Shown: one piece after another, positions 8,563 through 31,651 of the stretch | Numbering within the stretch: the first letter of the stretch is position 1 | Layout of the letters: every line of letters starts with the position of its first letter | Source: Chloroflexi bacterium RBG_16_57_11 | GTDB taxonomy: Bacteria > Chloroflexota > Anaerolineae > Anaerolineales > UBA4823 | Direction: 5' to 3' | DNA length: 33,171 bases | NCBI GenBank assembly: GCA_001795165.1 | Contig: MGNS01000072.1 | Span: forward strand, 4,324-37,494 | Notes under the pieces: model-generated | What the model was told of the DNA's origin: nothing | What the model saw: the letters and a program-made list of their open reading frames with translations, nothing else | The model's database searches: none | Translations under genes and position numbers: made by a program

Positions 8563-11500
8563 TCATCCCTCCTGTCGCTTCAACACCAGCAATGTCAGGT
8601 CGTCGGATGGCAAGCCGTTGCCGATAAACTCCTGTACGGCGAGATCAATCTTTTCTAACAGCTGCCCCGCTTCCAGGACACCTTCATCTTGATTCTCACG
8701 GATGGCGGCACTTTCGATCGTCTGGTACAGGCGCAGCTCGCCAAAAACCTCCCCTTGTGGTGAAAACGCCTCCGTCACCCCATCCGTGTATAGAATCAGG
8801 TGATCGCCCGGCTCCAGCCGGGTCTTCCAACCCTGGATATGATTACCTTCCTGCACGCCCAGCGCCATACCGCCGCGCCGGAGCTGTTCGAGTTGGCTAT
8901 TCTGGCCGCGCAGCACCAATGGCAGGTTGTGCCCGGCGTTGGCGAACTCCAGCACACCGGTGTCCAGATCCAACACTGCGTAAAAGATCGTTACGAACAT
9001 CCCACCCTGCGCGTCCGGCACAATAATATCATTCGCCCGTTCCAGTACATCGGCCGGTGAGTCGATCTCTTTTACAGTAGCCCGCACCAATGTGCGCACC
9101 AGGGTCATAAACAGCGCGGCTGGCATACCCTTGTCTGCAACGTCAGCAATGACCAGCCCCAGCCGGTTGCCTGGCAGCTCAAAATAATCGTAAAAATCGC
9201 CTCCGACTTCACGCGCTGTCCGCCAATGCACCTTCAGATCCCAACCCGGCAAATCGGGCACACTCTGTGGGAGGAAGGCGCTCTGAATCTCACGCGCCAG
9301 CTGCATTTCGCGCTCCAGGCGCTCTTGCTCGACCATCTCATGCTGCAAGAGATCATTCTGGATCGCCAGAGCAGCCTGCTGCGAGATGCCCGTGATGATC
9401 TCCAGGCGCTTGCCGCGCAAGCGCCGGTTGGCGTTGCTGGCGCTATATCCCTCCCCGGGCACAGGCTCGGGCTCTTCGATCAGAAAAACGCCTAACACTT
9501 TCCCTTTTATTGAAAGCGGAAAGGCGATCAGCAAACAGGGGGCGTTCTCCAGATAGTCGTTAACTTTATCCGCTTCAGGCGCCGCCAGGTAAGTCCAATC
9601 CTCGGGAACCTGGTCTGAAGCCGAGATCTCGCCCCACAGCGGGTGGGCAAGCAACGTATCTTCGATCAGCACGGTATCGAGCAGAGGGAACTCGCCCAAG
9701 CCGAACGTCGCCGCCTCCGCCGCTCGCGGCAGGCCGTACGATTGCCCCAGCCGGAACATATGCTGTGCTTCATCCCACAGATAAATCAGGGCGCGTTTCA
9801 CACCAACCAGGATCGGGGTGATGCGCACGATCGAGCCCAGGGCTTCATCCAGGTCAGACGAAGAGACCACCGCCTGAGCTACCTGCAGGAGCGCGACAGA
9901 AACGTAGGCTTCCTCCTTCTGTGATTTCTGCAGGTAGATATTATCCACAGCGACCGCAGTCTGGTGGGCGATGCCCTGCAATATCGCCAACCGCTCGTCG
10001 AAAAATGCGTCCAGCGATTTGCCGCTATTCAATACCGGGCTGCTGTAGTCGACCAACATCACTCCCAATACTTCATTGCGTACGGCGAGCGGCACCAGCA
10101 CCATCAGGCCTGTCCGGCGCCGGCTGTCGTCCAGCGGCTCGGGGTAAAGGATGCTGGTCAGGCGCTGATCGTCATCCTCACCATACAGGATCACCGGCTC
10201 GCGCTCGGCGACCAGATGATCGATCGCAGGGACATCGCCTGGGGCAAAACGCCAACGCTCGAATTCCGCCTGCTGTTCGCGGTTGAGCCCGGAGGCTGTC
10301 GCCGGGATGAAATCACCCTCCTCGTCCCGAATATAAAGCAAGCAAGAGCGCACCCCTGCCAGCATGGGCGTGATATGGATCACCGTCGCCAGCAGCTCAT
10401 GTAAATTGGTTAACGATTGGGTCGCGTTCGCCACTTGCAACAATACTGTCGAAACCCAGGCCTGTTCGTGAGCTTCTTCGTACAATCGGGCATTTTGAAT
10501 TGCGACGGCAGCGTAGCTGGCAAACGCCGCGGTCATGCCCCTGGCCTCCGAGCCGTAGCGGCCCGGGGTATGATGTGTCAACACCAGCACACCAAGCGGT
10601 AGCTCGCGGACGCGCAGCGGAGCGGCGATCGCCGAATAATCGAATGGGAACTGCATCGCTCCACCCAGGGGTTCGTGCTCCGACAGGGAGGTCCGTACCA
10701 CCGGCTCATCGGCTCGCAATGCTTCCCGCAGCCAGGTCGAAGCCGCCTGGGAGGTTTCATCCGTAGTTTCCGCGGTGCTGAAAACCAATACCTCTTCAGG
10801 GGTCAGCCCGATCTCCAGGTCGAGATCGCCGGCGCCCAAAACGGCAGCTAGGTGTAAGCTGGGTGAACTTTCCTCGATGTCTTTATCGACCTCTCCATCC
10901 ACCATCCAAATAGCCGCCAGGTCCAATGGCAAATTTTTCCCCAGCTCCTCCAGGATTACCCTCAGCACCTGGTCCAGATCTACATCCGTTGAGAGCAGGC
11001 CGGCCACCTCGCGCACACTGTCAGCCACCCGACGCCGCCAGACTTCCGAACGATAGAGCTGGGCATTGCGCATTGCGATTGCGATATGATCCGCCAGAGC
11101 CTCGAACAGGAAGCGCTCATCTTCCCCAAAGGCATTCGTTTTCTCACTTTGTATGTCCAGAACGCCGAGTACTGAACCGCCAAACACCAGCGGAACAGTC
11201 AGCTCGGAGCGCGTTTCGTCGGGGAGGAATGGCGAGGGCAGGTATCGCGGCTCCTGGCTCACATCGTTCGCCAGTAATGTCTCGCCATGTCTCCCCGCCC
11301 AGGCGATGAGACCCCGTTCCGCATCGAGGTCGAAAGAAAAGTTTTGCTCGCGAAGCTGCAGGCTGCGCTGCCCGCCGCCTGCCTCGTAGAAAATCTTCCG
11401 CCGCCCCGGGTCCACCGAAAACAGGTGAACGAATGGATAGCCAAAGCGCTGATGGATCAATTCGACCACTGCCTCCAGCAGTTGTACCTGATCCAGGATC

Positions 11501-12147
11501 GAAGTGATCGCGCTGCTGACCTCATAGAGCGTAGATAACTGGCTGGCACGACGTTGAAGACGCAACTGCTCCTTGGATAGTCGCAGGCTGGCTTGCAGCA
11601 CCAGGGCTACCTGGATCGCCATCCCCTCCACCAGCTGGATCTCTTCGGCGCTAAATGCTGGTTTGGTGGTAGGACGGACTGCTTGCAACACTCCCAGAAG
11701 CCGATCTGCCTGGCCTTCCGAGCCACGGATCAACATTGGGACTGCACAGGCGTGCGCAGCGCCTCCACCCTCCTCCATCAACCAATAGTTGCCGCTTCGT
11801 GCTTCCTCGCCCAAACAGGGGCGACGCGTTTCCAGGCAGCCGCGCATTAACTCGGATTGCAGGCTGGGCAGCTCAAGCGGGGTCGTTCCCTGCGGCTTGC
11901 CGCTAAGCTGGCTCACGATGTCCTCTGCCAACCATACCGCTGCCTCAGCCTGGACAGCCTGAGCGACGGTCTCCAGGATGATTTTGTTCTGGTTTTTGAG
12001 AATTTCTTCAGATGGATATTGATCGCTAGCGGACTGTTCTACAAGATAGAGCAGTTGCTCCCCCAACCCCAGCACCTGGTGCATTAAATTACCAGCCGAT
12101 ACGCGGCCTTCTATCGGCGCTTGGAAGCCCGGCTGACCGGCGCTCAC
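8563..12147 (-). CDS. Multi-GAF (about five) SpoIIE/RsbU-type PP2C serine phosphatase
   Basis: Repeated GAF-like units (LSTLYEVSSAITSILDQVQLLEAVVELI..., TVLLQVANATQSLTNLHELLATVIHITPML..., VALLQVAQAVVSSSDLDEALGSIVRITPIL...), then LEREMQLAREIQSAFLPQSVPDLPGWDLKVHWRTAREVGGDFYDYFEL...GLVIADVADKGMPAALFM; GTG start abutting the upstream stop. Confidence 0.9.
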   Translation of the reverse strand: MSAGQPGFQAPIEGRVSAGNLMHQVLGLGEQLLYLVEQSASDQYPSEEILKNQNKIILETVAQAVQAEAAVWLAEDIVSQLSGKPQGTTPLELPSLQSELMRGCLETRRPCLGEEARSGNYWLMEEGGGAAHACAVPMLIRGSEGQADRLLGVLQAVRPTTKPAFSAEEIQLVEGMAIQVALVLQASLRLSKEQLRLQRRASQLSTLYEVSSAITSILDQVQLLEAVVELIHQRFGYPFVHLFSVDPGRRKIFYEAGGGQRSLQLREQNFSFDLDAERGLIAWAGRHGETLLANDVSQEPRYLPSPFLPDETRSELTVPLVFGGSVLGVLDIQSEKTNAFGEDERFLFEALADHIAIAMRNAQLYRSEVWRRRVADSVREVAGLLSTDVDLDQVLRVILEELGKNLPLDLAAIWMVDGEVDKDIEESSPSLHLAAVLGAGDLDLEIGLTPEEVLVFSTAETTDETSQAASTWLREALRADEPVVRTSLSEHEPLGGAMQFPFDYSAIAAPLRVRELPLGVLVLTHHTPGRYGSEARGMTAAFASYAAVAIQNARLYEEAHEQAWVSTVLLQVANATQSLTNLHELLATVIHITPMLAGVRSCLLYIRDEEGDFIPATASGLNREQQAEFERWRFAPGDVPAIDHLVAEREPVILYGEDDDQRLTSILYPEPLDDSRRRTGLMVLVPLAVRNEVLGVMLVDYSSPVLNSGKSLDAFFDERLAILQGIAHQTAVAVDNIYLQKSQKEEAYVSVALLQVAQAVVSSSDLDEALGSIVRITPILVGVKRALIYLWDEAQHMFRLGQSYGLPRAAEAATFGLGEFPLLDTVLIEDTLLAHPLWGEISASDQVPEDWTYLAAPEADKVNDYLENAPCLLIAFPLSIKGKVLGVFLIEEPEPVPGEGYSASNANRRLRGKRLEIITGISQQAALAIQNDLLQHEMVEQERLEREMQLAREIQSAFLPQSVPDLPGWDLKVHWRTAREVGGDFYDYFELPGNRLGLVIADVADKGMPAALFMTLVRTLVRATVKEIDSPADVLERANDIIVPDAQGGMFVTIFYAVLDLDTGVLEFANAGHNLPLVLRGQNSQLEQLRRGGMALGVQEGNHIQGWKTRLEPGDHLILYTDGVTEAFSPQGEVFGELRLYQTIESAAIRENQDEGVLEAGQLLEKIDLAVQEFIGNGLPSDDLTLLVLKRQEG

Positions 12148-12669
12148 TCACTTCTCCTTATGTTTTATCATCCGCAACAGATTGCAATTCTTCCCAAGCT
12201 CCAGGTTCTTCATAAAGGAGAACTGGACTTCATCCATCAATTGATAAATAAAATACAGCCCAATGCCGCCCACCTCACGCTCTTCTAGCTCGGCTTTGAG
12301 ATTCGGTTCTGGCACCAGGCTCGGGTCGAAAGGCTTACCGCAATCGATCAACGTCACTTCCAGGTCACCACCAACCATCCGGCAGGTGCATTCGATCTGC
12401 TCCAGGCTTTCTCCCCCATAGGCATGTTCAATGATATTGGTGTAAGCTTCATCTACCGCCAGTTGGACCGCGTAGACCGCGGCCGGCTCCAAGCCGCACT
12501 CCTCCGCAGACTCAGCCACAAATTCTCGTACCCGGTCCAAATTTTCGAACTGCGCAGTTAGAATAATGGATCGATTTGAGCGCACCGATGAACCTGTGAA
12601 AGCCCCAAATTCTGTGCCAGTCTCCTGCGAAATCTCCGGCTGCACCGAATCAGAAAACAGATCAACCAT
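12148..12669 (-). CDS. Anti-sigma-factor-type HATPase (RsbW-like serine kinase)
   Basis: VQLAVDEAYTNIIEHAYGG...LEVTLIDCGKPFDPS...EVGGIGLYFIYQLMDEVQF. Confidence 0.88.
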   Translation of the reverse strand: MVDLFSDSVQPEISQETGTEFGAFTGSSVRSNRSIILTAQFENLDRVREFVAESAEECGLEPAAVYAVQLAVDEAYTNIIEHAYGGESLEQIECTCRMVGGDLEVTLIDCGKPFDPSLVPEPNLKAELEEREVGGIGLYFIYQLMDEVQFSFMKNLELGKNCNLLRMIKHKEK

Positions 12670-17802: not shown

Positions 17803-19479
17803 ATGGAAGAGATTATCTGGTTCAAGCACTATGACCAGGGGGTGCCACAGCACCTGGATTACCCCGCCGTACCATTGTTCCACTTTTTGGAGGAATCGGC
17901 CCGCAAATACCCCAACACCGCCTGCACGGTGTTCAAAGGGGCGCGCATCTCCTACCGGCGGATGAACCGCATCACCGACCGGCTGGCAGCCGGGTTGGCG
18001 GTGCTGGGCGTGCGTAAGGGTGATCGGGTGGGCATCTTTATGCCCAACACTCCCCAATTCGTGATGGCCTATTTCGGCATCCTGAAGGCGGGTGGCGTGG
18101 TGGTGGCAACCAACCCGCTGTATAGCCCCCGCGAGATCGAGCACCAGCTTAACGACGCGGGTATCCAGGTGATGCTGTCTACGAGCAATTTTTACAAGAT
18201 CATCAAAGAGGTACAACCCAGCACCGGTCTGCGCACAATAGTAGTGACGAATATAAAAGAGGCGTTGCCGTTCCCGCTTAGCACGCTATTCGGGTTGACT
18301 CGGGAAGTCAAGGAGGGTCACCGCGTCCAGCTCCAGGCAGGCGATCTATGGATGAAGGATCTGATCCGGCGCCACACCTCGGACGAGCGGCCGAAGGTCG
18401 AGGTTGGGCCAGATGACATCGCCCTCTTCCAATACAGTGGCGGCACTACGGGTATCTCGAAGGCCGCAGTGACGCTGCACCGCAATCTGGTCGCGAATAC
18501 CTTGCAGGTGCGGGCCTGGTTTGTCAACGCCGACGACGGCAACGAGACGATGCTGATGGCAATCCCGCTGTTCCACGTGTATGGCATGGTCGCCGGGATG
18601 TGTCTGGGGATGCAACTGGGGGCGTCCCTGGTAATGGTGCCCAATCCGCGTGATTTAAAAGACGTCCTTTCGAATATCGAGATCTACCGCACCACGCTGT
18701 TCCCCGGCGTGCCGACCATGTACAACGCCATCAATAACCACCCGGACGTCCAGGCGGGGAAATACGACCTCAGCTCGATTAAAGCCTGCATCTCCGGCTC
18801 AGCCCCGCTGTTGCAGGAGACCAAAGAGAAGTTTGAGAGGCTGACCGGTGGCAAGTTGATCGAAGGCTACGGCCTGTCCGAAGCACCCCCCACACATTGC
18901 AACCCACTGCTGGGGACTAACAAAGCCGGCTCGATCGGCCTGCCGCTGCCAGATGTGGAGGTCAAGATCGTCAGCCTGGACGATGAGGTGACCGAGCTGG
19001 CGCAGGGCGAGATCGGCGAGCTGGTGATCCGCGGACCGCAGGTGATGATGGGTTACCACAACATGCCCACCGAGACGGCCAACACCCTGCGGGACGGTTG
19101 GCTGCACACCGGCGACATTGCTCACATGAATCAGGACGGCTATTTCTTCATCGTCGACCGCAAGAAAGAGCTGATCAAGCCGGGCGGATACCAGGTGTGG
19201 CCGCGCGAGGTCGAAGAGGTGATCGCCCTCAACCCAAAGGTGCTGGAGGTAGGCGTGGCGGGCATCCCCGATGCTTATCGCGGCGAAACGGTCAAGGCCT
19301 GGGTGGTGCTCAAGCCGGGCGAGGTAGCCAGCGAGGACGAGATCAAGGCCTGGTGCAAGGATCGCCTGGCGAAATTCAAAATCCCCACCCACGTGGAATT
19401 CCGCGAGGTGCTGCCACACACCATGGTGGGCAAGCTGCTGCGTCGCGAGCTGGTGCGCCAGGAAGTAGAAAAAAGTTAA
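17803..19479 (+). CDS. Long-chain fatty acid--CoA ligase / AMP-dependent synthetase
   Basis: FQYSGGTTGISKAAVTLHRNL, EGYGLSEAPPTHCNP, GWLHTGDIAHMNQDGYFFIVDRKKELIKPGGYQVWPREVEEVI. Confidence 0.93.
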   Translation: MEEIIWFKHYDQGVPQHLDYPAVPLFHFLEESARKYPNTACTVFKGARISYRRMNRITDRLAAGLAVLGVRKGDRVGIFMPNTPQFVMAYFGILKAGGVVVATNPLYSPREIEHQLNDAGIQVMLSTSNFYKIIKEVQPSTGLRTIVVTNIKEALPFPLSTLFGLTREVKEGHRVQLQAGDLWMKDLIRRHTSDERPKVEVGPDDIALFQYSGGTTGISKAAVTLHRNLVANTLQVRAWFVNADDGNETMLMAIPLFHVYGMVAGMCLGMQLGASLVMVPNPRDLKDVLSNIEIYRTTLFPGVPTMYNAINNHPDVQAGKYDLSSIKACISGSAPLLQETKEKFERLTGGKLIEGYGLSEAPPTHCNPLLGTNKAGSIGLPLPDVEVKIVSLDDEVTELAQGEIGELVIRGPQVMMGYHNMPTETANTLRDGWLHTGDIAHMNQDGYFFIVDRKKELIKPGGYQVWPREVEEVIALNPKVLEVGVAGIPDAYRGETVKAWVVLKPGEVASEDEIKAWCKDRLAKFKIPTHVEFREVLPHTMVGKLLRRELVRQEVEKS

Positions 19480-21086
19480 GCGGCGAGCTGGATCACCCCC
19501 CAGCGCCCATCATACATCCAGGTAGGGTCAAGCGTGTACATTCGTTCACGCAAGCCAGGCGGCAGGCCGACCACGATCTCGGACTTCAGCACGCGCAGCG
19601 CCAGCAGGGGCGCCGGGCGGTAAGCCAGGATGGCGTCGAACGGCGTGGTGAACGGCCAGTGGCGGTCACCCAGCCAGCGGCGGTAGTTGGCGTCGCCCTT
19701 GCTGATCAACAGGTCTGCCTGCGCCAGCTCCTGGCGCAGCGCTTCGGGCATCTCCCAGCCCGCCAGTGGCGAGAGCCAGAAATCGTCCGCCTGAACGAGC
19801 AGGCGGCCTGCCCGCAGGCGCTCTTGCAAGGCCCCCGCCAGCCGCCGAACAGCGGGATAGGCCGAGCCCGCCAGGGCCTCCAACGTCGCTCCAACATCCG
19901 GGATGGTGACATCCGAAACATAGGTGGGGTACGGCTTGGCGTGGAAACGCACCTCTTGGCTCAGCCCGCTCGCCAGAAGGGCCTCGGCCAGCAACAGATC
20001 GTAAGCCAGCTCGATGCCGCTGTTATCCAGGATGAAAATCACTGTACCAGGGCCGCGCTGTTTCACCAGGCCATCCAGGTAAACGCTGGAGCGCCTCGAG
20101 TCATCCACCAGCAAATGAGCCGCTAACTGTTCCTCGCTGGGGCGCTCCGGCTTCTCCCCGCCCTCCGGCCAGACGCTCAAGTCGGCCTGGTTGCCCCAGA
20201 TGGCAGTGCGCAGCAGGTGCGCCAGGGTTTCGACCGGCGCCTGGTGTGTGTTTTCCAGCCATGTACAGGCCGGCTCCAGCGCTTCAGCCGCTCCGGCCAG
20301 GCCGCCTCTCTTCTGTGCCTGGAATGGATCGATCCCCCGTCCTGGTCCATCCTGGAAATAGCCGGTGGCTTCCAGGATGCGGCGGAAGAAGTAGGTTTCA
20401 AGGGCGAACCAGGGTCCTTCCAGCCAGGTCTGGCCCAGGTAGGGCGGCAGGTAGGTCCGCCACAGGGCAGCGTCCGGCGCATCGCCATCCTGTAGGGGGC
20501 GCACGCGACCGTTGGGCATCTCGTCCGCCAGGGCCTGCAGCCGCCTGGCTGCTTCGGGGGGCCAATCGCTATCCTGCAGCACCTGCCGGGCAATCCCCGG
20601 CAGGCGGCGGGAGAGGGTATCTTCGGCAAACGAGCCCGGCTCGTTGCCACGCAATGCGTCGGGAAATGGGGAGGCGACCCCAGGGAAAGATGGTTGTGAC
20701 ATCAGCAGGATTTCTCCTCGGTCAGCGTCCACGCGCAGGCTTTGCCCGCTGCGCAGGCGAGAAATGTCGATTTGATCCACGCAAGGGATCTCGGCGATGA
20801 TACAGCCGGCGGCGGTGATCGTCTCACAGGTGGCGTTGATGATGGCGGCGGGCGCGACGTTGTTGCGCTTCAGGCGATACAGGGTGTACGAGCCAACCGT
20901 CGAGCCTTTGCCGCTGGGGAAAACCAGCACTTTGCCGGCGATGGACTGCCCTTCCAGCTCGTGCCCGCGCTCGATCACCACACCGCTCTCGGGATCGACC
21001 CCGCCGAAGAAGGAGATCCCCATCGCTGTGACCAGCGCCTCGCCCTGGGCTGTGCCGGGGTAAATTTTACGTCCGGTAAGTTTCAT
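19476..21086 (-). CDS. Fusion: aconitase-X small (swivel, DUF126) subunit plus DUF89/ARMT1-like phosphatase domain
   Basis: aa ~1-133: GTAQGEALVTAMGISFFGGVDPESGVVIERGHELEGQSIAGKVLVFPSGKGSTVGSYTLYRLKRNNVAPAAIINATCETITAAGCIIAEIPCVD (DUF126). aa ~140-536: GPWFALETYFFRRILEATGYF...VIFILDNSGIELAYDLLLAEALL...AKPYPTYVSDVTIPDVGATL...ADLLISKGDANYRRWLGDRHWPFTTPF (DUF89). One uninterrupted ORF. Confidence 0.85.
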   Translation of the reverse strand: MKLTGRKIYPGTAQGEALVTAMGISFFGGVDPESGVVIERGHELEGQSIAGKVLVFPSGKGSTVGSYTLYRLKRNNVAPAAIINATCETITAAGCIIAEIPCVDQIDISRLRSGQSLRVDADRGEILLMSQPSFPGVASPFPDALRGNEPGSFAEDTLSRRLPGIARQVLQDSDWPPEAARRLQALADEMPNGRVRPLQDGDAPDAALWRTYLPPYLGQTWLEGPWFALETYFFRRILEATGYFQDGPGRGIDPFQAQKRGGLAGAAEALEPACTWLENTHQAPVETLAHLLRTAIWGNQADLSVWPEGGEKPERPSEEQLAAHLLVDDSRRSSVYLDGLVKQRGPGTVIFILDNSGIELAYDLLLAEALLASGLSQEVRFHAKPYPTYVSDVTIPDVGATLEALAGSAYPAVRRLAGALQERLRAGRLLVQADDFWLSPLAGWEMPEALRQELAQADLLISKGDANYRRWLGDRHWPFTTPFDAILAYRPAPLLALRVLKSEIVVGLPPGLRERMYTLDPTWMYDGRWGVIQLAA

Positions 21087-21107
21087 ACTGTATTCTCGTA
21101 TATCAGG

Positions 21108-21176
21108 TAAACCACAGAGTCACTGAGTCACAGAGTTTTTTATAAATCTCCGTGCTCTCTGTGACTCTGTGGTTAC
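21108..21176. repeat. Imperfect inverted repeat in the gap between the two aconitase-X subunit genes
   Basis: TAAACCACAGAGTCACTGAGTCACAGAG...CTCTCTGTGACTCTGTGGTTACA; arms are built of CACAGAGT-like octamers. Confidence 0.7.
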
Positions 21177-21177
21177 A

Positions 21178-22380
21178 TTACCTTTTTATCGCTTGCTGCA
21201 CAACCTCGTCGAAGGGCAGGAAGCGCGTTTTGAACTTGTTCTTGGCATAGGCGTAGTAGCAGGCTTTCGCGCTATCGGTTGCCAGGGCGTTGAAGCGTCC
21301 TTTGATCGGGGCAACCACACAGCAGGTATCCACGGCGAACTTGGCGCCGCTGGCCTCAATTACCTGGGTGTAACCCAGGCGATCGGCCTGGTATTTGATG
21401 GGGCGGGAGGTGGTGATCCAGAACTCTTTTGCCACCTCCTGGCCACGCAGCAGCTCCGCCAGGCGGGCGATCTCGTCGATCGACAGGTGCGGGCAGCCCA
21501 GGCTGACGAAATCCACCTCAGCGTCGCTGGCATCGTTCAGGGCCGCAACTGCGGCGTCGATCTCGGCCTGGGTGAGGACCAGGCGCTCATCCGGCGAGGT
21601 GTACAGCTCCGCTTCCGGCGTGATACCGGGCATGTGGAACAGCGCCGCCCCGCCGAAGGTGGCCAGGCTGGCGCAGAGTGACTTGAGCTCTTCCAGCGAT
21701 GCACGCTGGACGCCACGGATGTACGGCACGGGTCTTAGATTTTGCGCCTCTAATTGCTCGCCGATGGCCCGGCCCAAAGCGCCGAAGGCGAACGTGCCCT
21801 GCACACCGGCGCGCACATCGATGGTGACTGCGGGCATCCGGTTTTGGTCCAGGTGGTAGCCGTAGGCGGGCGTTCGCCCGGTCAGCGCGGCCGCCAGGGC
21901 GCTTGGGCCGCCCTCGCGGTTGGTTCGTGCCCCCAGCACGGAGTTGGCGTAGCACACCGCGCTGCTCTCGGCCCAGGCGATGTGCTCACCAAAGCCGGGC
22001 GTATTACCGGACAGGTACGGCGTGCACGTACAGGTGACCTGCACCCCCATGTGAGCGAAGGCCTCCAGGACGCGCTGCTGGTTGGCGGCGAAATCCGCCG
22101 GGATGCCCAGCGCCTGCCAATTCTCCACATCCATCCCGGCCGGGTTAAGTGTCGCCAGCACGCGCGCCTGCCCGCCGCCGTCGGCCATCTCTTGCAAGAA
22201 CTCCAGCCCGGCCTCGCCCAGGTTGTCGTAGCTGACCCCGGCGATCTGCACCGAAGTCACAGGCAGCATGCACTCCGCCTCGAAGATTTCACCCAGGGCA
22301 ACCAGGATCTCCATCGCCTTGCGGGCAGCGCGGCCGTGGTCGCCGGCCAACATGGCTTGTTCTTCAGAGGTCAGTCTCAT
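21178..22380 (-). CDS. Aconitase X catalytic (large) subunit, DUF521; candidate mevalonate-5-phosphate dehydratase large subunit
   Basis: MRLTSEEQAMLAGDHGRAARKAMEILVALGE...CTCTPYLSGNTPGFGEHIAWAESSAVCYANSVLGARTNREGGPSALAAALTGRTPAYGYH...VDTCCVVAPIKGRFNALATDSAKACYYA. Confidence 0.88.
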   Translation of the reverse strand: MRLTSEEQAMLAGDHGRAARKAMEILVALGEIFEAECMLPVTSVQIAGVSYDNLGEAGLEFLQEMADGGGQARVLATLNPAGMDVENWQALGIPADFAANQQRVLEAFAHMGVQVTCTCTPYLSGNTPGFGEHIAWAESSAVCYANSVLGARTNREGGPSALAAALTGRTPAYGYHLDQNRMPAVTIDVRAGVQGTFAFGALGRAIGEQLEAQNLRPVPYIRGVQRASLEELKSLCASLATFGGAALFHMPGITPEAELYTSPDERLVLTQAEIDAAVAALNDASDAEVDFVSLGCPHLSIDEIARLAELLRGQEVAKEFWITTSRPIKYQADRLGYTQVIEASGAKFAVDTCCVVAPIKGRFNALATDSAKACYYAYAKNKFKTRFLPFDEVVQQAIKR

Positions 22381-22386
22381 GTGGCA

Positions 22387-23688
22387 TCATCCAATATAAC
22401 GGCTCAACTCCACCTTCGGAAACTCAGCCTTCTCGTACACCTTGCCCCTGGCCTCCAGCGGCTTGGTCAAATCAAAGCCCACTTTGGTCGTTAGATAGGT
22501 GCCCGGCTCGGCGCTGGGGTCCAGGCTGGAGCCCTGTTCTTTTTCCAGCACCACCATATCTCGATCGACCTGGAAACGCGTCGCCATGGCCCATTCCACC
22601 GCCAGAGGGTCGTAGATGTCGATATCCCGGTCCACCACAAAGACGTGCTTGCACGAGCGGTGACCGGCGAAGGCCGCCTGGATGGTCTTCAGCCCGTCGT
22701 CTTCGGCCTGCTTGTCGATCTGCACGACGGCGTGCAGCCAGGAGCAGCCACCTGGGCCAACGTTGACGTCCAGGCAGCGCACCACTTCATTAACTTTCTT
22801 GAAGATAGTTGGCTCACGCGGCATGCCCATCAGCAGCTTGTGCCCCAGCGCGCCGGGCAGCAGGGCGTGCCAGATGGCGTCATGGCGGTGGGTGATCGCC
22901 TTGACGACAAAGACCGGCTCCTGGCGCACCACGTCGTAGGTCTCGGTCAGATCAACAAACGGTCCTTCGGGGTGTCTGCGCTCCAGGTAAACCGTACCTT
23001 CCAGCACGAACTCAGCCTCGGCGGGGATGAGTAGCTCGACGGTTTTTGCACGGACCAGCGGCAGCGGCTCCAGCGCGTTAGCAATCTCCAATTCGTCCAC
23101 GCCGATCTCGACCGAGGTGGCAGCGGCAACCAGCACGTTCGGTCCAACACCGACGCACACCGCCACATCCACCGCCTTCAGCTCCTGCAGGAACGTGTCA
23201 AAATGGCGTGAGCGCACCACGCGCACCGCCATCTCGTTTCTGGAGAACTGCATGCAGCGATGGAAGTCGGCATTCTGCCCGTAGACTGGATGCCGGGCGA
23301 TCACCACCCCCGAGCTGATATAGTACCCGCCATCCCGCTCACAGTGGCGCAGGATGGGGAGCAGGTCCAGGTCGAGTTCCTGGATGATCACCTCCTGGCA
23401 GGGCGCCTCATTGATCACCGGACAAGGTGAGCGCTGATCGATCGCCCGGCTGAGCAAGGGGATGATCCCCGAAACCGGTACGTCGAAATAGCGGGCGAAA
23501 TCGGCCTTGCTGCACACCAGGTTGCCGGCGAGGCGGAACCCAGATTCCTGCACGTTTTCGAACAGCACCGGCCGCGGCTCGAGCTGCTTGAGCACCCCTG
23601 CGATCTCGTAGGTCTTGGAGATCGGAGCGCTAATCCGCACCAGGGAGTGATCCTCTTCCAACTGCTTGAGATGGCTGCGAAAGGACAT
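22387..23688 (-). CDS. UbiD-family (prenyl-FMN dependent) decarboxylase
   Basis: MSFRSHLKQLEEDHSLVRISAPISKTYEIAGVLKQL...PVLFENV...YISSGVVIARHP...RHPEGPFVDLTETYDVVRQEPVFVVKAITHRHDAIWHALLPG. ORF upstream extension to 23802 is probably untranslated. Confidence 0.9.
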   Translation of the reverse strand: MSFRSHLKQLEEDHSLVRISAPISKTYEIAGVLKQLEPRPVLFENVQESGFRLAGNLVCSKADFARYFDVPVSGIIPLLSRAIDQRSPCPVINEAPCQEVIIQELDLDLLPILRHCERDGGYYISSGVVIARHPVYGQNADFHRCMQFSRNEMAVRVVRSRHFDTFLQELKAVDVAVCVGVGPNVLVAAATSVEIGVDELEIANALEPLPLVRAKTVELLIPAEAEFVLEGTVYLERRHPEGPFVDLTETYDVVRQEPVFVVKAITHRHDAIWHALLPGALGHKLLMGMPREPTIFKKVNEVVRCLDVNVGPGGCSWLHAVVQIDKQAEDDGLKTIQAAFAGHRSCKHVFVVDRDIDIYDPLAVEWAMATRFQVDRDMVVLEKEQGSSLDPSAEPGTYLTTKVGFDLTKPLEARGKVYEKAEFPKVELSRYIG

Positions 23689-23763: not shown

Positions 23764-23821
23764 TAAAAAAAGACCCTGAAGGACTGGGGCGATGCTTCGC
23801 ATCGCACATCCTTCAAGGTCT
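23764..23821 (-). terminator. Rho-independent terminator downstream of hsp20
   Basis: AGACCTTGAAGGATGTGCGATGCGAAGCATCGCCCCAGTCCTTCAGGGTCTTTTTTT on the minus strand. Confidence 0.85.
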
Positions 23822-30367: not shown

Positions 30368-31651
30368 CTAACGACCAGCGTCAGCCGCTGATAGCTCAGC
30401 CGTTCGGGCTCGCTCGAAGAGCAGTTCGCGTTCGCGTGTGTTGCAGGTGAGTGTTGCCGCGCGCTCGAACTCTGCGCGGGCTTCGTCGAAACGGCCTAGC
30501 CTGGCGAGCAGGTCGCCGCGCACGCTTGGCAGGAGGTGATAATCCTCCAGTGATGGCTCGGAGGTGAGCAAATCAACGATCTCAAGCCCTGCTGCCGGAC
30601 CATACGCCATCGATAACGCGACTGCGCGGTTCAGCTCCACAACGGGTGATGGCATGAGTTGGGCAAGGGCATCGTAGAGCGCCGCGATGCGCGCCCAGTC
30701 CGTCTCGGCGGGGATGCGTGCGCGTGCGTGACAGGCGGCAATTGCGGCCTGCAATGCGTATGGCCCGAGCGCGGCGCCGAGTTTCTCGGCGCGCTCAAGC
30801 GCCACGAGGCCGCGCCGGATGAGGAGCTGGTCCCAGCGGAGGCGGTTTTGATCCAAGAGCAGAATGGGCTCCCCCGACGGGCCAACCCGCGCCCGAATAC
30901 GTGAGGCCTGAATCTCCATCAGCGCAACAAGACCGTGAACTTCGGGCTCGTGCGGAACGAGCTCAGCCAGGATCCGGCCAAGACGGAGCGCATCCTCGCA
31001 CAGCGCCGGTCGCACCCAGTCGTCGCCGGCGGTCGTTGAGTAGCCTTCGTTGAAGATGAGATAGATAACCTCCAACACGGATGACAGTCGGGCGGCGCGG
31101 ACGGATTCGCTCGGGTTCTCGAAAGGAACATGCGCTTCGGCCAGGGTGCGCTTTGCCCGCACGATGCGTTGAGCGATGGTCGCCTCCGTTACCAGGAAGG
31201 CACGCGCGATCTCCCAGGTTGTCAGGCCTCCGATCAGCCGCAAGGTGAGCGCAACGCGCGCCTCAGTCGAGAGCAACGGATGGCACGCTGTGAAGATGAG
31301 GCGCAAGAGGTCGTCACCGATGTCATCGTCGAGGGCGGTATCGAAATCCGCCTCGCTCACCGCTTGTTGGATCTCGAGCTCGCGACCCAGCTGCTCATGC
31401 TTACGCTCCAGCGTAGTTCTTCGCCGCAACTGGTCAACCGCACGATGCTTAGCGGTGGCCATGAGCCAGGCGCCCGGATTGTTCGGGATGCCCGACTCCG
31501 GCCACCGCTCCAACGCGATCACGAGCGCGTCCTGCGCCAGGTCTTCAGCCAGGCCAACCTCACCCACCATGCGAGTGAGACTGGCGATGATCTTCGCCGA
31601 TTCAATCCGCCAGACTGCATCGATTGCGCGATGGGTATCGGAGGTCGCCAT
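30368..31651 (-). CDS. ECF42-like sigma factor with C-terminal TPR-like extension
   Basis: [70 protein letters not shown]...[51 protein letters not shown]; neighbouring DGPF protein. Confidence 0.9.

Follow-up and report, generated by a model that had tools for sequence, protein, structure and literature searches.

The stretch of DNA analyzed here (the window) comprises 33,171 nucleotides (nt) of Chloroflexi bacterium RBG_16_57_11, whose genome is designated G000 below; other G numbers denote its relatives. At 19476–23688 on the minus strand it carries an operon that codes, in gene order, for a UbiD-family protein, an AcnX large subunit, and a 536-residue fusion protein. Inspection of the open reading frames (ORFs), together with Pfam searches, agrees with a first-pass annotation, made from the sequence alone, that had described these three ORFs (Table 1). 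The first two genes and the beginning of the third are predicted to encode two consecutive enzymes of the archaeal (modified) mevalonate pathway, phosphomevalonate dehydratase (PMDh) and anhydromevalonate-phosphate decarboxylase (AMPD), with the PMDh small subunit joined to a DUF89 phosphatase domain.

Table 1. Features of the operon, by position in the window
Feature	Position	Strand	Evidence
UbiD-family protein, 433 residues, predicted AMPD	22387..23688	-	UbiD N, Rift and C domains all detected (Pfam); tree; residues
AcnX large subunit, 400 residues, predicted PMDh large subunit	21178..22380	-	PF04412, 8.6e-149 (Pfam); identity; residues; tree
Fusion protein, 536 residues: predicted PMDh small subunit (DUF126 swivel) and DUF89/ARMT1-like phosphatase domain	19476..21086	-	Pfam; AlphaFold2; Foldseek
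Predicted PMDh small-subunit domain, residues 1–128, GKGSTVGSY motif with Ser62/Thr63/Val64 equivalents	20703..21086	-	PDB 7cnr_B, 2.7e-43; residues
Linker, residues 129–139, beginning at internal ATG 20702–20700	20670..20702	-	Sequence; predicted local distance difference test (pLDDT) <50 at 131–139
DUF89/ARMT1-like phosphatase domain, residues 140–536, catalytic motifs intact	19479..20669	-	Pfam; alignment; Foldseek
Strong palindrome between the AcnX large-subunit and fusion genes	21110..21174	-	RNA fold -38.4 kcal/mol, z -7.7

Assignment of the window AcnX to the archaeal PMDh group (AcnX type IIb) is well supported, and mevalonate 5-phosphate is its predicted substrate. Both subunits match the PMDh-type subunits of T. 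kodakarensis (TkAcnX) in the PDB, and the large subunit is 46% identical to that of TkAcnX versus 35% to the hydroxyproline dehydratase of A. tumefaciens. The TkAcnX residues that contact mevalonate 5-phosphate have been listed together with the cluster cysteines (PMC8184944). In the large subunit, Gly48, Val49, Ser50, Asn53, Asn79, Glu129, Ser130, Ser131, Lys361, and Tyr365 are identical in the window; in the small subunit, Ser62 and Thr63 are identical and Val64 replaces the Thr of the hydroxyproline enzyme. The only listed contact that differs is small-subunit Leu27, which is Phe in the window and Phe or Tyr in many archaea. The cysteines at Tk positions Cys110, Cys283, and Cys342 are present in the window and in every aligned row of both Chloroflexota clades described below, and the alignment shows that the residues for mevalonate 5-phosphate and the Fe-S cluster are kept across the window's clade as well.

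Likewise, trees and residues support placing the window UbiD in the archaeal AMPD group and not among the aromatic UbiD enzymes, the distinction that the first-pass annotation had proposed to check; its reaction is predicted from that placement. Residues R144, E241, and D246 are invariant across the archaeal and Chloroflexota rows compared. By alignment, the third residue of the Glu-Arg-Glu/Asp network is Asp in these rows and Glu in HmfF and the Bacillota row. Supply of the prenyl-flavin mononucleotide (prenyl-FMN) cofactor was approached through a gene survey, with profile cut-offs, of 61 genomes, namely the window's own and 60 relatives. The window UbiD is the sole UbiD match in G000, which has one UbiX over cut-off (G000:C161) adjoining a MenG/UbiE-type methyltransferase gene. 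UbiX tracks UbiD among the surveyed genomes, being present in 34 of the 37 with UbiD and in 3 of the 24 without it, although the genomes are kin and the p-value overstates their independence. It is also present in 15/16 genomes whose sole UbiD is of the window type, G000 included. UbiX lies inside the operon or close to it in five relatives; a carotenoid-desaturase-like gene adjoins it in two. Retention of UbiX for quinone synthesis alone was rejected; the methyltransferase neighbor fits that idea, but G000 is without any other UbiD match.

The third gene joins a complete AcnX swivel domain (PF01989, residues 24–103, complete profile, 3.9e-35) to a near-complete ARMT1-like domain (PF01937, residues 157–514, 1.4e-68). 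The DUF89 motifs GNQADLS, LDNSG, YVSD, and SKGDANYRR are all intact, and they align with those of human ARMT1 and of an S. pombe DUF89 phosphatase. The AlphaFold2 model has two confident domains (mean pLDDT 90.8) separated by a low-confidence linker at residues 131–139. In Foldseek searches the N-terminal part matches the T. kodakarensis small subunit (root mean square deviation 0.9, template modeling score 0.96), and the remainder matches human, S. pombe, and S. cerevisiae DUF89 structures, among them 6umq, which we take to be human ARMT1. Profile, alignment, and predicted structure thus uphold the earlier description of a complete swivel domain joined to DUF89 with intact motifs. The window PMDh would accordingly consist of two separate chains, a large subunit from its own ORF and a small chain lengthened by DUF89.

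Comparison with related genomes provides evidence on how the fusion arose. A search for other DUF126-DUF89 fusions, as the first-pass annotation had proposed, finds one more fused ORF, G435:C81, which belongs to a different genus and lies on a contig that stops inside DUF89. The joined ORF is present in 2/38 genomes of the family, and no further fusion was found among 400 genomes sampled across the phylum. In G403 and G405 the small-subunit and DUF89 genes overlap on the same strand. At the window junction the DUF89 ATG is kept within the sequence CTGATG, together with a TGA shifted by one frame; a GAGGAG at 20719–20714 lies 11 nt upstream of this internal ATG. The same ATG matches the start of the free-standing DUF89 gene of G405, where the gene pair has an ATGA overlap. 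The G435 junction is in frame but differently built, with no ATG there. Two unlike junctions, together with the overlapping pairs in G403 and G405, suggest that the simplest origin is fusion of adjacent overlapping genes, perhaps twice. An assembly artifact as the sole cause was rejected in view of the independent fused ORF in G435, although a one-base event in the window is conceivable. Searches of the open-licence PMC literature on DUF89 listed no report of an AcnX-DUF89 fusion, and the arrangement is new within the literature searched, if rare.

A scan of public genomes yielded at least 80 loci from Chloroflexota, diverse archaea, one KSB1 bacterium, and one Bacillota bacterium, and the gene order UbiD-AcnX large-AcnX small is common to many of the archaea and the window. 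In a careful UbiD tree, from which nine rows (long branches among them) were omitted, the window clade of 17 rows is sister to seven Thorarchaeota with support of 100/98. A second Chloroflexota clade stands apart, also with support of 100/98, and a single clade for all Chloroflexota UbiD is rejected (approximately unbiased test, p=2.8e-5). A quick AcnX tree likewise separates the two Chloroflexota clades; there the window clade groups with Thorarchaeota, Diapherotrites, and one Aenigmatarchaeota row, and the A. tumefaciens hydroxyproline dehydratase falls outside it. In UbiD and AcnX trees G136, a genome of the same class as G000, clusters with named Anaerolineae/Chloroflexi. Apparently, the AcnX/UbiD gene set of this Chloroflexota lineage came from archaea near Thorarchaeota. 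The separate second clade points to at least two acquisitions by Chloroflexota, one of them beside Thorarchaeota. Because the trees either lack a root or take distant rows as one, and because the archaeal sample comprises only the loci listed, Thorarchaeota are the nearest sampled group and not a proven donor. The scan also recovered archaeal-type AcnX large and small subunits in the two bacteria outside Chloroflexota, L152 (KSB1) and L198 (Bacillota), the latter with a distant UbiD. A different apparent fusion occurs in an Ardenticatenia metagenome-assembled genome (L185:6743-8092), where the AcnX small subunit is followed by a long hydrophobic stretch in the same ORF.

The gene survey also covered the remainder of isoprenoid synthesis. 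IspH, of the methylerythritol phosphate (MEP) pathway, is detected in 0/61 genomes, and the same search found it in 10/14 control genomes. Isopentenyl phosphate kinase and mevalonate kinase are each over cut-off in 55/61 genomes, and a GHMP decarboxylase model is matched in 47/61. G000 encodes two HMG-CoA reductases of different types: G000:C117 matches NADPH-type models under their cut-offs, and G000:C71 matches the TIGR00532 'degradative' model over cut-off. Its GHMP decarboxylase scores 256 bits against the diphosphomevalonate decarboxylase model (cut-off 171) and 186 bits against the phosphomevalonate decarboxylase model (cut-off 475). In Roseiflexus, a protein that bears the diphosphate-enzyme annotation has been shown to be a phosphomevalonate decarboxylase (PMC3857490). 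AcnX as a replacement for GHMP decarboxylase was considered and rejected, since AcnX presence and decarboxylase absence are unassociated (p=0.71). With a GHMP decarboxylase beside PMDh and AMPD, many of these bacteria seem equipped with two ways of converting mevalonate 5-phosphate to isopentenyl phosphate. Of the genes that the first-pass annotation had proposed to look for, HMG-CoA reductases and UbiX are found in G000, alongside the GHMP decarboxylase; the MEP pathway (IspH) is absent, and mevalonate kinase and isopentenyl phosphate kinase are not over cut-off.

Sequence, predicted fold, residue conservation, phylogeny, gene order, and co-occurrence form the basis of a joint reading, to which we assign a probability of about 0.85: an archaeal-type two-step route was acquired from archaea, stands beside a GHMP decarboxylase, and was joined by DUF89 as a neighboring gene. 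In the mechanism we infer, a [4Fe-4S] heterodimer of the AcnX large and small subunits would dehydrate mevalonate 5-phosphate to trans-anhydromevalonate 5-phosphate, which UbiD, as a prenyl-FMN enzyme, would decarboxylate to isopentenyl phosphate. Conversion of this product to isopentenyl diphosphate would fall to isopentenyl phosphate kinase. The resident GHMP decarboxylase probably also reaches isopentenyl phosphate, at a cost of one ATP, so that two routes may lead to one product. An existing DUF89 gene that adjoined and overlapped the small-subunit gene most likely became joined to it. Dual-route physiology and phosphatase activity are further predictions of this reading, as is the role of the phosphatase. 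Relative to the first-pass annotation, the PMDh/AMPD assignment, the mevalonate genes, and a recurrent fusion find support, and a phosphatase acting on a pathway intermediate does not. The GHMP decarboxylase lay outside its view, and the isopentenyl phosphate route it proposed is probably a second route and not the sole one.

Several observations weigh against this reading. Neither mevalonate kinase nor isopentenyl phosphate kinase is detected over cut-off in G000, an assembly that is 87.6% complete. The two kinase genes adjoin in relatives (directly seen in G401), and one assembly gap could therefore explain both absences; the same-genus G400 is also without both. The resident GHMP decarboxylase makes the archaeal-type route look dispensable, and no AMPD with a known structure turned up for comparison. 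Finally, DUF89 is free-standing in most genomes, including genomes without AcnX, and its link to the pathway may not exist.

It is highly improbable that the operon instead degrades a hydroxy acid, with AcnX serving as a hydroxyproline or other dehydratase and UbiD acting on an unrelated acid. The genes for an aldo/keto reductase, an acyl-CoA ligase, and MFS transporters near the operon would suit such a role, but the hydroxyproline-specific positions differ in the window (Asp203 to Ala, Ile206 to Ser, Thr72 to Val), those for mevalonate 5-phosphate are present, and the trees put AcnX and UbiD in the archaeal PMDh/AMPD groups. Moreover, the NCBIfam hydroxyproline model gives the window AcnX 293.5 bits, far under its cut-off of 700. 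Trees and residues alike place AcnX away from the hydroxyproline dehydratases, which the first-pass annotation had kept as its alternative. A tentative possibility is that the window's fused frame arose by error or by neutral accident, with DUF89 being made separately from the internal ATG. The retained ATG, the nearby TGA and GAGGAG, and the ATGA overlap in G405 speak for this; the in-frame G435 fusion, built differently and lacking a junction ATG, speaks against it, though its contig ends inside DUF89.

In the joint reading, the fused DUF89 is probably a working metal-dependent phosphatase that stays attached to the dehydratase, and the best guess for its role is general house-cleaning of phosphorylated metabolites. 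A dedicated role in the pathway is unlikely. In such a role DUF89 might remove phosphate from a phosphorylated C5/C6 intermediate or by-product (isopentenyl phosphate or anhydromevalonate phosphate), or trim dimethylallyl diphosphate to the monophosphate needed by some UbiX enzymes for prenyl-FMN. The fused ORFs of two genera, the overlapping gene pairs of two more genomes, and the intact catalytic motifs favor such a role, as do the description of S. pombe Duf89 as a phosphatase-pyrophosphatase (PMC11253589) and the use of dimethylallyl monophosphate by some UbiX enzymes (PMC6541611). Set against these, the occurrence of DUF89 shows no significant association with that of AcnX (Fisher p=0.24). 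The same-genus G400 and G401, without AcnX small-subunit and UbiD matches, retain a free DUF89, which adjoins an aldo/keto-reductase-like gene resembling that of the window. Elsewhere, inositol-phosphate-synthase-like and trehalose-type genes adjoin DUF89 (by eye). Around the named archaeal AcnX loci and those of the second clade, the flanks retrieved contain no DUF89; G136 has a DUF89 gene ~6 kb away, on the opposite strand. DUF89 as a conserved pathway partner was rejected on the lack of significant co-occurrence and on these flanks, and the same lack, together with DUF89 genes in genomes without AcnX, disfavors the phosphatase on a pathway intermediate or product proposed by the first-pass annotation. 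It is quite improbable that DUF89 adds a new pathway-tied step, forming isopentenol from isopentenyl phosphate or dimethylallyl monophosphate for the UbiX that serves the adjacent UbiD, in which case the fusion would self-regulate a second, oxygen-sensitive isoprenoid route retained next to the ATP-dependent one.

Other features of the window concern gene calls and neighbors. For UbiD, the ATG at 23688 is preferred (by eye) over the longer ORF start at 23802, because the latter falls within a palindrome that resembles a terminator and follows an HSP20-like gene. The palindrome upstream of the fusion gene has 18-nt arms and lies where the AcnX large- and small-subunit genes touch or overlap in many relatives; its 16-mer has no match in any other fetched locus except copies of the same stretch. 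Farther away, the minus strand encodes an adjoining multi-GAF SpoIIE-domain protein (8563–12147) and a HATPase_c_2 (histidine-kinase-like ATPase) protein (12148–12669), and a Sigma-70-type regulator with DUF6596 and a weak TPR match lies at 30368–31651.

The closest known system is the archaeal mevalonate pathway, first characterized in Aeropyrum pernix, with which the window shares enzyme families, catalytic residues, and the gene order of many archaea. The window set differs in its bacterial setting beside a GHMP decarboxylase and in the C-terminal phosphatase domain of its small subunit. TkAcnX was inactive as purified; it was with the A. pernix enzyme that activity was demonstrated (PMC10040528). 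Occurrence of the pathway in Chloroflexota is already reported, for Candidatus Promineifilum breve of the same phylum, by Kanno et al. 2024 (doi 10.1128/aem.01106-24), as cited in PMC13001223. The Roseiflexus-type alternative route (phosphomevalonate decarboxylase and isopentenyl phosphate kinase; PMC3857490) shares the start and product, mevalonate 5-phosphate and isopentenyl phosphate, and both of its gene families occur in the surveyed genomes. Unlike the window operon, it is a one-step, ATP-dependent GHMP decarboxylation that involves neither an Fe-S dehydratase nor a prenyl-FMN enzyme. The A. tumefaciens hydroxyproline dehydratase, of the same superfamily, bears its own C-terminal extension (large domains) on the swivel domain (PMC8184944), and its substrate residues and cluster cysteines are unlike those of the window. 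ARMT1, S. pombe Duf89, and yeast YMR027W have the predicted fold and motifs of the window phosphatase domain in common; these solved phosphatases are stand-alone, whereas the window domain is fused behind an AcnX small subunit.

These findings widen the bacterial range of a pathway that was called unique to archaea as recently as 2023 (PMC10040528). Some lineages seemingly keep both the archaeal and the ATP-dependent routes, which raises the question of whether oxygen or energy supply governs the choice between them. The fusion, in turn, offers a handle on the function of DUF89 phosphatases in bacteria.
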